A stretch of DNA of 64,000 bases, from NCBI RefSeq assembly GCF_002896875.1, contig NZ_CP023278.1:1178001-1242000 (forward strand), in the 5' to 3' direction. The position numbers were made by a program, and so were the translations under genes. Within the stretch, counting starts at the first letter, position 1; each line of letters opens with the position of its first letter. Shown here in pieces: positions 38,719-44,377 of the stretch. The notes under the pieces were generated by a model. It was not told the DNA's origin. It worked only from the letters and a program-made list of their open reading frames with translations, and searched no databases. Source of the DNA: Nostoc sp. CENA543 (GTDB lineage: Bacteria > Cyanobacteriota > Cyanobacteriia > Cyanobacteriales > Nostocaceae).

Positions 38719-39216
38719 ATGACCATTTACTTTTATAAAGTTTGGCAACCTTTTGGTTGTTTTTCTAACTTTTCTACCCACGGTATTGAAATTCAAGGTA
38801 CTTACTGGTCAACAGTAGAGCATTACTATCAAGCACAAAAGTTTGTCGGGAGTGTGGATGCGGTAATTATTCCCGTCATCCGTGCGGCTAAAACTCCAGA
38901 AGAAGCCGCAGCGTTAGGACGATGTACTAGCCGCAGACTGCGTTCCGATTGGGATTTAGTCAAAATCTCAGTCATGCGAGAAGCTATATTGAAAAAGTTT
39001 CTCACCCATCTTGACATTCAAGCCACACTCTTAAGTACAGGGAATGAAATCTTAGTAGAAAATTCCCCCACTGATTATTTTTGGGGTTGTGGTGTAGATA
39101 AAACTGGTCACAACCATCTAGGTAAAGTTCTCATGAGTGTACGGGAAGAAATCCGCAATCTCCAGCTAAGTAATGCTATATCTCCAAAAATTTGTCCTCA
39201 AGAGTACAAAGTTTAA
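38719..39216 (+). CDS. NADAR-family (YbiA-like) protein
   Basis: 165 residues, the usual size for NADAR/YbiA proteins. Signature segments: PFGCFSNFSTHGIEI, YWSTVEHYYQAQKF, ALGRCTSRRLRSDWD and YFWGCGVDKTGHNHLGKVLM. Members are N-glycosidases that remove reactive riboflavin-pathway intermediates or act on ADP-ribose derivatives; the conserved Glu in STVEHYYQ and the WGCG loop are at the active site. Single gene, no phage or defence neighbours within 5 kb. Confidence 0.88.
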   Translation: MTIYFYKVWQPFGCFSNFSTHGIEIQGTYWSTVEHYYQAQKFVGSVDAVIIPVIRAAKTPEEAAALGRCTSRRLRSDWDLVKISVMREAILKKFLTHLDIQATLLSTGNEILVENSPTDYFWGCGVDKTGHNHLGKVLMSVREEIRNLQLSNAISPKICPQEYKV

Positions 39217-40000: not shown

Positions 40001-42760
40001 ATGGAATTTACGGATAAACCCCATAGTTTGCCACCAATTTTTGAGCAAGAGAGTTTACTGCATAGGATTACTAACCGCATTAGGCGATCGCTAGAACTTA
40101 ACGAAATCTTAACAGCCGCAGTGGAAGAAGTCCGCGAGTTGTTAGGTACAGACCGAGTTATGGTCTATCGGTTTGATGCTGATGGTAGCGGTGAAGTCAT
40201 AACAGAATCTTTATTGTCCCAAAATTTACCATCTCTATTGGGTTTACATTTTCCGGCCGATGATATCCCTCAAGAAGCCAAACAGATGTTTCTCTGGGCA
40301 AGACAACGCACAATTGTTGATGTTTCCACCGGTAAAATTGGGCTATCATTACTGAACTCACCAGATCAATCGCAAACTTTACTGGGTGAAAATATCTACT
40401 ATCGCTCAGTAGACCAGTGTCATATAAAATACTTGCAAGCGATGGGTGTGCAGTCTTCTTTAGTCATTCCAATTGTTTTATCTGATCTGCAAGAACCATC
40501 TAACCAACAGAAACTCTGGGGATTGCTAGTATCCCATCACAGTCAACCACGTCATATTTCTACTCCAGAACTGAAATTAGTTCAGCAAATTGCTGACCAA
40601 CTAACAATTGCGATCGCCCAAAGCCTACTTCTGGCTGCCACTCGCGCCCAGCAACACCGAGAAACAGTAATTAACCACATTAGTAGCCTCTTACACAAGC
40701 AGCCCAACATTGAATTGCAAGCAGCCCTAAAAGCAACCATTCAGGCTTTAGGGGGTACAGGTGGCAGACTTTATCTAGAAAAAACTCAAGAACTATATAC
40801 TTACGGGGAACAACCAAATCTACCCCAAGAGTTGAACAACAGTTTGATTGAACAGCATCCGATGTGGATTACCTGGATGGCTGAGTCGAAACCGGATCAT
40901 GTTTGGGTAATTTCTGATCTCTACCAAGAAACAAAGTTACCAATTTTAGCTTTTGCGTTTCAGTCTACTACTATTCGCGGTCTATTGGTCATACCACTCC
41001 ACTATCGCCAACGATTTATCGGAGTTATCAGTATTTTTCGCCCCGAATGGGAGACAGAAATTCTCTGGGCGGGAAGATGTGAGCAAAATCAACGTCAAAA
41101 ACTACCACAGCTATCTTTTGAAGTCTGGCGTGAATTGAGAAAAGGTCAAGCACCCCAATGGAGTGCGGCCGAAATTGCTTTAGGAAAAAGTTTGGCTTCA
41201 GATTTTGCTGTAGCGATTCAACAACTATATACACACCAACAGCTAGAGTTATTGAACTTGGATTTAGAATGCCGGGTTAAAGAACAAACGGCTGAGTTAG
41301 AGAAATCTTATCTCATCACCAAAGTGATTAAGCAAGTTACAGAACAAATCCGCCGTAGCTTGGATTTACCCACTACTCTCAAGACTATAGTTTCAGAAGT
41401 GCGTTTCCTCCTCAATTCAGACCGAGTATTAATTTACCAACTGATGGGAGAATCGAATGGCGAGGTGATTGTAGAGGAAGTTCATGGTAATTGGGATTCC
41501 GTTTTAGGGATGAAAATGCCATCGGGATGTTTTCCTGATGAATATGCGCGTCTTTTTTTTCGTGGTAGGGTCAGAGTCATCAATAATATAGCTACAGATT
41601 CTTTAAGTGATTGTCACCGTGAGTTTTTACAGAGTTTACAAATCAAATCAAATTTGATTGTTCCTATTAATATGAGTCAACAGCCTTGGGGATTACTCAT
41701 TGCTCATCAATGTGACGCACCAAGATATTGGCAAGAGGCAGAAATAAATTTATTACAACAGCTAGCAGACCAAGCTGCGATCGCTATTTCACAAGCCCAA
41801 CTCTACCACAAAACTTGTCAAGCCGAAGCCGCCGCAAAAGCTCAAGCCATACATTTAGAAAAAGCTTTATTTGACCTACAAGATGCCCAAACAAAATTAA
41901 TTCAACATGAGAAAATGTCCAGCTTAGGACAGTTAGTAGCAGGTATTGCTCACGAAATTAACAATCCTATCAACTTTATTCACGGCAACCTCTGCCATGC
42001 TAGCGACTACGCTCAACAATTACTAGAACTGATCTCCCTTTATCAAAAATACCATCCCCAGCCCCACAGCCAAATTACCCAATCCCTTGAAGATATAGAT
42101 TTAGATTTTTTAGTGGAAGATTTACCCAAAATTCTAGCTTCTATGCAATCGGGTGCAGATCGCATTCGTTCCATAATTTTATCATTACGGAATTTTTCTC
42201 GTTTAGATGAAGCAGAGCGTAAGTCAGTTGATATTCATGAAGGGATAAATAGCACTTTATTAATCTTACAGCATCGACTCAAATCCCATCTGTATAACTC
42301 TGAGATTGAAGTTATTAAAGATTATAGTGAATTACCACTGGTAGAATGCTATGCCGGTCAGATGAATCAAGTATTCATGAATATATTTGCTAATGCCATT
42401 GATGCTCTAGAAGAATATGCGGCAGAGCATCCAGATACACCTAAAATTTATGTTTGCACGCAAATTTCTCCAGACACATCCCATGTTCTCATTCGCATTG
42501 CTGATAATGGCCCAGGCATGACAATAGAGATAAAAAATCGCATTTTTGACCCATTTTTTACTACTAAGTCTGTAGGCAAAGGAACAGGCTTAGGATTGGC
42601 AATTAGTTATCAGATAGTGGTCAACAATCATGGCGGAGTGATGGAATGTGTATCAGAAATAAACAAAGGTACAGAATTCTGGATTGAGATTCCGGTCAAG
42701 CTCAAGACCAAATTAGAGACTGATTTAAATCCCATTCGCTCTATTCCACAGGAATTATGA
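40001..42760 (+). CDS. Knotless phytochrome-like hybrid GAF sensor histidine kinase (All2699-like)
   Basis: 919 residues: GAF1, a PHY-like GAF2, GAF3 and a histidine kinase. GAF1 has the phytochrome motif DDIP (87-90) and Cys140-His141 in [15 protein letters not shown], the usual bilin-attachment site. The second domain (about 225-420) has a tongue-like segment, ILWAGRC then LSFEVWRE, matching the PHY tongue. GAF3 has a second Cys538-His539 in [11 protein letters not shown]. The kinase core has His651 in [11 protein letters not shown] and ends with [11 protein letters not shown]. There is no N-terminal PAS domain, hence knotless. The layout matches Anabaena All2699, reported to bind phycocyanobilin. 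Bilin binding here is inferred from the Cys-His pairs. No response regulator is adjacent. Confidence 0.88.
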
Positions 42761-42781
42761 TCTGGCTAACTTGCTTGTAGT

Positions 42782-42805
42782 CAGGGATTTAGCCCTGTTT
42801 TTATT
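42782..42805 (+). terminator. Intrinsic terminator of the phytochrome-like kinase gene
   Basis: CAGGG (42782-42786) pairs with CCCTG (42793-42797), followed by TTTTTATT. It lies 21 bases after the kinase stop codon. Confidence 0.75.
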
Positions 42806-42991
42806 CAGCCTCAACCGTAACAATATCCTTTACAAAACTTTAATTCATAACAAGTGTTTACTAATTAGCAAAAATATGGTGCTTGATATCTCAAATTGAT
42901 ATATCATAAAGCTTTCTAGTCTTTAAGGCATGATTAAATTAACAGCAAGAGTAAAGTTTGTTTGCGGTTAATTCCATCCTCTTCTAGAAGT

Positions 42992-43270
42992 GTTAATCTA
43001 TTAATTGAAGCTACAAAGCTTCCCTGGCAGATTTAACAGCTAGAGTGTAGTTAGTAAAAGAGGTAAAAACGCTGTTTCATTTCATATCTGTCTCGTTAAC
43101 AACCGACAACACCCAACGCGAAAGTTGATATTTCCTCAATTATTCACCAATGGGGGCAATTTAACTGATTTCATTCTTAATGGAAAAGATGAAACAGATT
43201 ATATCCCTGGTTAAGATTACCAATGAGAGGAAGTAGTTAGAACAAGTAGATGGTTGGGTGTTGTTGTGTT
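42992..43270 (+). ncRNA. Candidate structured RNA, copy A of a tandem pair
   Basis: About 279 bases that are repeated at 43376-43656 and contain no reading frame. Predicted stems: GAAGCT/AGCTTC around ACAA (43007-43022); CAGAT (43028-43032) with ATCTG (43086-43090), enclosing AACAGC (43035-43040) with GCTGTT (43071-43076); and a long outer stem CGACAACACCCAAC (43104-43117) with GTTGGGTGTTGTTG (43253-43266). Inside the latter, CTGATTTCAT (43165-43174) pairs with ATGAAACAG (43189-43197). The last pair of this hairpin is T-A here and C-G in copy B, a compensatory change that supports an RNA structure. Strand is inferred; it matches no RNA family I know. Confidence 0.6.
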
Positions 43271-43287
43271 GAAATAGTATTTAATTA

Positions 43288-43316
43288 TTGACAATTACTT
43301 GGTCATTAGATAATGC
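43288..43316 (+). promoter_or_regulatory. Possible promoter between the two structured copies
   Basis: A perfect -35 hexamer TTGACA (43288-43293) is followed at 17 bases by TAATGC (43311-43316), or at 15 bases by GATAAT. It would start transcription about 50 bases before copy B. No comparable box is visible before copy A. Confidence 0.4.
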
Positions 43317-43375
43317 TCAAACAAATAGTAAATAGTAAAGTTTAATAACAGAAATATTCTAGATAATTTATTAAT

Positions 43376-43656
43376 GCTAATCTATTAATTGAAGCTACAA
43401 AGCTTCCCTGGCAGATTTAACAGCTAGAGTAGAGTTAGTAAAAGAGGTAAAGACGCTGTTGATTTTTATATCTGTCTCGTTAACAACCGACAACACCCAA
43501 CGCGAAAGTTAATACTTCCCCAAGTATCCAAAAATGGGGGCTATGTAACTGCTTTTCACCTCTCATTGATAAAAGTGAAACAGTCTATATCCCCACCTAA
43601 GCTCAACCAGGAAAGGAAGTAGTTAGAACAAGTAGATGGTTGGGTGTTGTTGTGTT
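43376..43656 (+). ncRNA. Candidate structured RNA, copy B of a tandem pair
   Basis: About 281 bases, offset 384-385 bases from copy A. The most conserved blocks are the first 70 bases (TCTATTAATTGAAGCTACAA onward), the block with CAACACCCAACGCGAAAGTT, and the last block with GGAAGTAGTTAGAACAAGTA and GTTGGGTGTTGTTGTG. The outer stem is CAACACCCAAC (43491-43501) with GTTGGGTGTTG (43639-43649). The inner hairpin is CTG plus TTTCAC (43549-43559) with GTGAAACAG (43575-43583). The loop regions between these differ from copy A while the pairing is kept. No open frame is present. Confidence 0.6.
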
Positions 43657-44089
43657 TAGAAATTATTTTAGAGGATGTTTGAAAACTGGTTAGCTACAAG
43701 TATTTGATATATCACCAGGGACTTTTAAAACAGAATACTTAGATGCTTAGTGGTGTGGCAGTATCAAGCTTTAGATGCGTTACGGCTGACGCTTAACACA
43801 GCACACATATACTACATATACTTGTATTCTTTCTCTCAATCAAATCTGATTCCTATATTTGACAATGATTTTTATACTTAAAATTAAGTATAATTACAGC
43901 TTTTGATGCTTTCGGAATTTGCTGAGGATTTATCTGACTCCCACACAGAACATTTATATCAATCTATTTGTTTGTCAATAAAGATAAATACTGCTTTTAA
44001 ATCCTTGTGATTTTTCTATTAAATACATTGTCTACTTAAACTATACCAGTTATTGTAAGCAATATACTAAAGCTTCAGGAGTGATAACC
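43657..44089. other. Gene-free interval
   Basis: AT-rich. It holds GAGGATGTTTGAAAACTGGT (43671-43690), similar to a segment at 50065, and a short imperfect palindrome around ATGCGTTACGGCTGACGCTTAAC (split: ATGCGTTACGGC and GACGCTTAAC) near 43776. Nothing else recognised. Confidence 0.4.
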
Positions 44090-44377
44090 ATGCACCAAAT
44101 ACAATTAGCCTTAATAATCAGCTATGTATTGATGAGTTGTTACTTTTTCGCTAACTGGCTGCGCTTTGCTTTGCGTCACCCTCATTCTTCCCCTGAAGAT
44201 AAATTTCTATCTTTTGTGATGTTTTTGATAACCACAATTTTTTGGCCGTTAATTGTTCCTATTTCTTTGATAGAAGTAGTCAAGACAAAAAAAATAGAAG
44301 CTACTACGATAATACCTGTAGTTTTGACAATGATTGCCTTAAGTATTTCTTACGTAATATCAGAAATGTCGGCGTAA
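44090..44377 (+). CDS. Small membrane protein, function unknown
   Basis: 95 residues from the ATG at 44090, which has AGGAG 8 bases upstream; a GTG at 44081 is in frame but overlaps that ribosome-binding site. There are three hydrophobic segments (about 5-23, 38-60 and 72-88). The first loop contains LRFALRHPHSSPEDK. No family recognised. The next gene follows in the same direction after 48 bases, so the two may be co-transcribed. Confidence 0.65.
   Translation: MHQIQLALIISYVLMSCYFFANWLRFALRHPHSSPEDKFLSFVMFLITTIFWPLIVPISLIEVVKTKKIEATTIIPVVLTMIALSISYVISEMSA

Follow-up and report, generated by a model that had tools for sequence, protein, structure and literature searches.

The stretch of DNA analysed (the window; 64 000 nucleotides (nt) of Nostoc sp. 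CENA543, contig NZ_CP023278.1, positions 1,178,001 to 1,242,000 of the forward strand) contains a tandem pair of elements at 42991–43668, which are described here as candidate genes for a structured RNA. Coordinates without a prefix are those of the window, and all features of the pair lie on the + strand. An inspection of the letters and open reading frames (the sequence-only reading) had reported two copies at an offset of about 385, and a direct repeat was found accordingly: segments 42991–43171 and 43375–43555 are 90 % identical at a spacing of 384, and a second block (43175–43282 and 43561–43668) is 80 % identical at a spacing of 386. Neither copy had been seen to hold an open frame, and no other gene had been seen in the interval; in agreement with this, zero open reading frames of at least 80 amino acids (aa) were present in the 1.3 kb between 42760 and 44081.

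The predicted RNA is composed of three parts: a 5′ hairpin (P1), a conserved domain of two helices and a purine loop (domain 2), and a long covarying arm (domain 3) closed by a stem of 12–18 base pairs (bp). Copy A was assigned to 43005–43266 (approximately 262 nt) and copy B to 43389–43652 (approximately 264 nt), with the 5′ ends set from the −10 element and the 3′ ends from the outer stem; the length of about 280 nt given in the sequence-only reading has to be shortened to a conserved RNA of approximately 262–264 nt, beginning near 43005 and 43389. P1 (GAAGC/GCUUC) was placed by alignment A2 (see below) at 43007–43022 in copy A and at 43391–43406 in copy B. Domain 2 of copy A (43026–43092) consists of GGCAGAU/AUCUGUC (43026–43032/43086–43092) around AACAGC/GCUGUU (43035–43040/43071–43076), and the Shine–Dalgarno-like motif AAGAGGU of its loop was located by pattern search at 43058–43064, with its counterpart in copy B at 43442–43448 (sequence and pattern search). 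Domain 3 extends over 43106–43264 in copy A and 43490–43650 in copy B. The outer stem that the copies had been said to share was recovered as 12-bp arms ACAACACCCAAC/GTTGGGTGTTGT, which close domain 3 at 43106–43117/43253–43264 and 43490–43501/43639–43650, and the end pair of one inner hairpin does read U–A in copy A (UUUCAU/AUGAAA) and C–G in copy B (UUUCAC/GUGAAA). Single-strand folding gave z values of −2.94 for copy A and −2.53 for copy B, with 1 of 200 shuffles equal or better in each case.

Covariation was evaluated on a set of 65 copies, from which partial second copies (L045, L047, L060), weak matches on the opposite strand, and loci that were duplicates (L002, L015, L016) had been dropped beforehand. 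Alignment A2 covers the 5′ part in 50 of the 65 copies. Alignment A3 covers domain 3 in 36 of them plus 16 of 21 further copies (52 sequences). Excluded from it were close relatives, part of the copies of L041 and L059, six divergent members (L031, L036, L043, L046, L060, and L061), two near-duplicates (L103 and L105), one copy of L117 (the second), L108 with its insertion, and L113. Pairing holds in 98.5 % of cells across P1 and domain 2 (98.6 % in GGCAGAU/AUCUGUC, 98.4 % in AACAGC/GCUGUU). Domain 3 is paired in 85.7 % of cells and shows double-sided changes in 31 of its 36 pairs; double-change cells amounted to 169, versus 59.5 in column shuffles and 26–70 with slid partners, a comparison that somewhat favours the structure used, which was drawn by hand from the same alignment. 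The proof of conserved structure rests in this domain. Its outer stem is kept despite complete replacement of the sequence (e.g., AUAACAGCGAUC with GAUCGCUGUUAU in the f8/g70 genomes), and it was better than all 20 shuffles in 63 of the 65 copies and in 19 of the 21 further copies. In L113 (genome G380) it fails, with 7 of 20 shuffles equalling or beating it; L118, L003b, and L030 are borderline (1 or 2 of 20).

Promoter-like elements were found directly upstream of each copy. The box GTAAAGTTT, a candidate activator site, lies at 42951–42959 for copy A and at 43335–43343 for copy B, and a −10 element TAATCT is situated at 42994–42999, just upstream of the 5′ hairpin, and at 43378–43383, respectively. 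Across the homologues, a GTAAA[CG]TTT-like box was present in 68 of 86 copies versus 10 of 509 control windows and started 55–59 nt before the 5′ hairpin in 67 of these 68; in the 18 copies lacking it by pattern, a diverged box is possible. A TAnnnT directly upstream of the hairpin was matched in 85 of 86 copies (loose pattern, used without control). A search of the window's genome with the upstream box gave three places at one mismatch. The TTGACA noticed earlier between the copies is present (43288–43293); as a promoter it found no support, because a consensus σ70 scan of 42850–43800 returned no −35/−10 pair and the conserved box and −10 element sit directly upstream of each copy, which makes TTGACA unlikely as a start. 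The missing σ70 pair together with the conserved box would fit an activator-dependent promoter.

The distribution was determined by DNA similarity and with a covariance model of the 5′ part only (118 positions, 17 pairs, 50 sequences). By DNA similarity, the window's genome holds exactly two copies, in agreement with the covariance model, and the element was present in all 13 genomes of the genus. Across the order, 174 of 291 genomes, from 88 of 121 genera, carry it; these 174 include at least two weak matches, G024 (8.9e-4) and G026 (2.0e-4), that were not recovered by the covariance model. With strict filters, the model gave matches in 86 of the 386 phylum genomes, representing 49 of 139 genera. 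Of these 86, six belong to other orders of the class, or five if the weak match in G380 (L113, E=1.2e-4) is false. Counted from model matches, long copies range from one to four per genome, with two or more in 21 of the 86 genomes. The suggestion of a new RNA family was borne out to the extent that homologues occur in syntenic as well as in unrelated loci, with covarying stems, and that no family of Rfam 15 reached its gathering score in the 64-kb window. Three Nostoc plasmid records matched 50–61 % of the query, with no annotated feature beneath any match. The phage records gave zero matches to the element. A gapped pattern of 21 specified RNA letters matched four virome contigs (L141–L144); these matches look like chance, because the two contigs inspected hold phage-like genes, as judged by eye, and the one read in sequence is devoid of the rest of the element. 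A phage origin was rejected on the unmatched phage records and on this contig, two of the four contigs having been inspected.

Apart from AAGAGGU and the A-rich letters after it, the domain-2 loop is variable in both length and sequence. The pattern search detected the loop motif in 84 of 86 copies, eleven of which carry AAGGAG-type variants (AAGGAGU) instead. With ACCUCCUUU, which we take to be the tail of 16S rRNA, at least five consecutive Watson–Crick pairs are possible for 82 of the 84 motifs versus 288 of 1680 shuffled ones; this result is partly circular, since the pattern was built to find such motifs. Pairing of the purine loop with a domain-3 strand was considered and dismissed, as it amounts to at most four consecutive pairs (81 copies measured). 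ATG, GTG, or TTG follows the motif at a distance of 3–14 nt in only 7 of 86 copies and is absent there from the other 79. A coding function was likewise rejected: the usual start codons are rare behind the motif, and the conserved letters fall in two frames.

The neighbours of the RNA differ between genomes (58 loci compared, limited flanks), so that the RNA must work in trans in some of them. One gene recurs beside it. This gene encodes a protein of approximately 256 aa and, in 38 of the 65 genomes that have both, follows the RNA on the same strand; its start is located 247–1684 nt past the 5′ end of the RNA (median about 365, with the farther of the two copies used for G016). Adjacency also occurs in other orders (G318, G337, and G499, and G306 at 1.7 kb), and the co-occurrence of RNA and gene has an odds ratio of 41 (kinship ignored). 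In the remaining 27 of the 65 genomes the two are not adjacent, 21 genomes have the RNA without the gene, and 21 have the gene without the RNA; upstream of the gene in 20 of these last 21, the model with filters off gave chance-level matches only (E 1.4–3). Constant placement upstream of one gene class, as in a riboswitch or leader, was therefore not found, with 38 of 65 adjacent and neighbours otherwise variable. In the window's genome, the gene lies at G000:C1:944444–945208, separated from the RNA pair by about 276 kb. The RNA and this gene probably share an old link, either functional or as an operon.

The protein itself is highly conserved, starts with MAIIALRAWY or similar, and is encoded by 86 of the 386 phylum genomes (see also L062:3139–3912 and L112:3116–3883). 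No match was obtained in Pfam, NCBIfam, or PADLOC, and PDB gave one match at E=0.86; by eye, its C-terminal half may resemble TIR-like or nucleotide-binding folds. In Nostoc sp. CMAA1605 (L066:4348–4671) the gene is represented only by an open stretch of 108 aa and may be broken. Among the other neighbours in the window, a 919-aa sensor kinase (40001–42760; two GAF, PHY, HisKA, and HATPase domains) lies directly upstream of the RNA pair, and related sensor kinases precede the RNA in several other loci. A NADAR-domain gene (PF08719) is located at 38719–39216, and homologues of it occur near the RNA in 8 of the 58 loci.

Conservation, a covarying arm structure, promoter-like elements, a variable gene context, and tandem duplication were all observed for this element. 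The pair probably represents two tandem genes for a free-standing structured RNA of approximately 260 nt, belonging to a cyanobacterial family that is absent from Rfam 15; this degree of confidence covers the RNA genes only, the mechanism being a separate matter. Each copy would be transcribed on its own from its own promoter, transcription would be switched on by an activator binding to the GTAAA[CG]TTT box, and the RNA would work in trans. A contact with the 30S subunit is proposed because the loop carries a motif complementary to 16S rRNA, mostly without a usual start codon behind it, followed by conserved letters that fall in two frames, and with little pairing to domain 3. The AAGAGGU/AAGGAGU loop may thus pair with the anti-Shine–Dalgarno tail of 16S rRNA, which would hold the RNA on the 30S subunit and limit or redirect translation, and the covarying arm might serve as a protein-binding handle. 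A 30S-binding regulatory RNA is the single most likely specific mechanism, held tentatively; it has close competitors in protein sequestration and in a partnership with the neighbouring protein. The fuller proposal, in which a class-wide RNA docks on the 30S subunit through a start-less Shine–Dalgarno mimic, is induced under a specific condition through the box, and originally partnered the adjacent ~256-aa protein, is speculative and on balance improbable. If true, this fuller proposal would amount to an unrecognised RNA-based system of translation control. The RNA spans several cyanobacterial orders with its own promoter-like architecture, and, in transformable strains, it is a defined object for knock-out and pull-down work.

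Several observations weigh against this interpretation. In P1 and domain 2, a double change was seen in 2 of 17 pairs, a value reached by 10 of 500 shuffles and compared with 0–4 in slid versions; with so few varying pairs, covariation in this part proves little. No intrinsic terminator was detected in 42850–43800, nor in the relative L007, where a single promoter-like match lies well downstream of the RNA; the sole terminator-like trace is a T-richer tail in the 12 nt past the stem (45 % T versus 28 % background, 76 copies). The lack of a visible intrinsic terminator could explain why terminator-based screens would miss the RNA. The covariance model with strict filters found no match in 300 of 386 genomes of the phylum, and with laxer filters 34 of 35 re-tested negatives, among which was G260 from the window's own family, stayed negative (one gave E=0.0084), so that the absences are at least partly real. 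The ribosome idea stands on one short motif obtained with a pattern made for such motifs, and the frequent adjacency to one gene is a link that the ribosome mechanism leaves without explanation.

One alternative is an RNA acting as the 5′ leader or operon partner of the ~256-aa protein gene, either as a cis-regulator or as one half of a ribonucleoprotein, and later separated from it in some lineages. The adjacency in 38 of 65 genomes, with other orders included, and the strong co-occurrence speak for such an arrangement; the 27 non-adjacent genomes, the 21 RNA-only and 21 gene-only genomes, the chance-level matches upstream of the gene in 20 of the latter, and the distance of about 276 kb in the window's genome speak against it, and we regard it as rather unlikely. 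The RNA cannot be a leader only. The purine loop and the long arm could also be protein sites of an RNA that sequesters a protein, as 6S and CsrB do, with no role for 16S rRNA. The long covarying arm and the near-invariant unpaired purine loop suit such a function, as does the presence of more than one copy in 21 of 86 genomes; the RNA is not a 6S homologue, however, has no known protein partner, and shows a loop variation that stays within complementarity to the 16S tail (the search pattern having been designed for motifs of this kind). Sequestration is a tentative alternative.

A further alternative is translation of a small open reading frame from a CUG behind the Shine–Dalgarno-like motif. 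This frame is open for 17–31 codons in all 84 copies measured, whereas early stops are frequent in the other two. The spacing between CUG and the conserved TCTGT is, however, 15 in 46 and 14 in 33 of the 84 copies, so that the conserved letters are read in different frames; in addition, the stems covary, the usual start codons follow the motif in only 7 of 86 copies, and under a looser pattern the frame ends after a single codon in one copy. We consider such translation very improbable. A mobile or repeat element in place of an RNA gene might account for the tandem copies, the shifting locations, and the copies on three Nostoc plasmid records, and is harder to reconcile with the low copy number, the promoter-like elements, the stems covarying across the class, the absence of matches in phage records, and the virome contig read in sequence, which lacks the rest of the element; its probability is close to negligible. 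Two tandem RNA genes, with the 30S subunit as a tentative site of action, remain the preferred interpretation.

Over 42700–44200, nine matches to Rfam were recorded (E 0.57–7.7), all under the gathering score of the respective family. To our knowledge, widely conserved and strongly covarying bacterial RNAs absent from Rfam are uncommon. The present RNA resembles 6S RNA, likewise a free-standing bacterial RNA whose structure includes a single long hairpin-like domain; 6S RNA (RF00013) itself was rejected, as it has no match in the window and the genome's own 6S lies elsewhere (G000:C1:781618–781801, 112.6 bits). NsiR1 of heterocystous cyanobacteria is similar in that its RNA genes occur in direct repeats, and differs in that these are short tandem repeats upstream of hetF, whereas here one to four long copies per genome occur, in other families and orders as well. 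The NsiR1 arrangement was not found at the locus, where two long copies at a spacing of 384–386 follow the gene of a GAF/PHY histidine kinase (no search was made for hetF itself).

Yfr2 is represented by an Rfam model. As described, Yfr2 is likewise free-standing, with three members in one genome, without fixed synteny and with some directly upstream of a gene, and Yfr2a is an RNA of approximately 80 nt whose single stem carries a loop of 12 nt (PMC2662882). Compared with that description, the present RNA differs in its length of approximately 260 nt, its three domains, and its lack of an Rfam match.

A description of the family was not found in the open literature (subscription papers and supplements lay outside the search). 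The closest candidate is transcript 2462444f of Nostoc PCC 7120 (Brenes-Alvarez 2016), which, according to that report, was predicted at 258 nt, verified by Northern blot, found with homologues in 24 of 27 heterocystous genomes, and more abundant when nitrogen is limiting, including in ntcA and hetR mutants (PMC4734099). Its length is near the ~262 nt found here, and the conservation would fit. In G012, the distance from a Yfr1-motif place (a candidate Yfr1) to the RNA was determined by hand as 2.55 Mb on the same strand, versus 2.41 Mb between Yfr1 and 2462444f in PCC 7120; in the other genomes measured (seven in all), the distances from Yfr1-motif places do not fit. The pipeline of that report required a TransTermHP terminator, of which none was seen here, and the table with 2462444f covers only transcripts restricted to heterocyst formers, whereas the present RNA reaches other families and orders (PMC4734099). 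That the two are the same RNA is doubtful. The RNA is rated as a putative new family within the free-standing structured bacterial RNAs.
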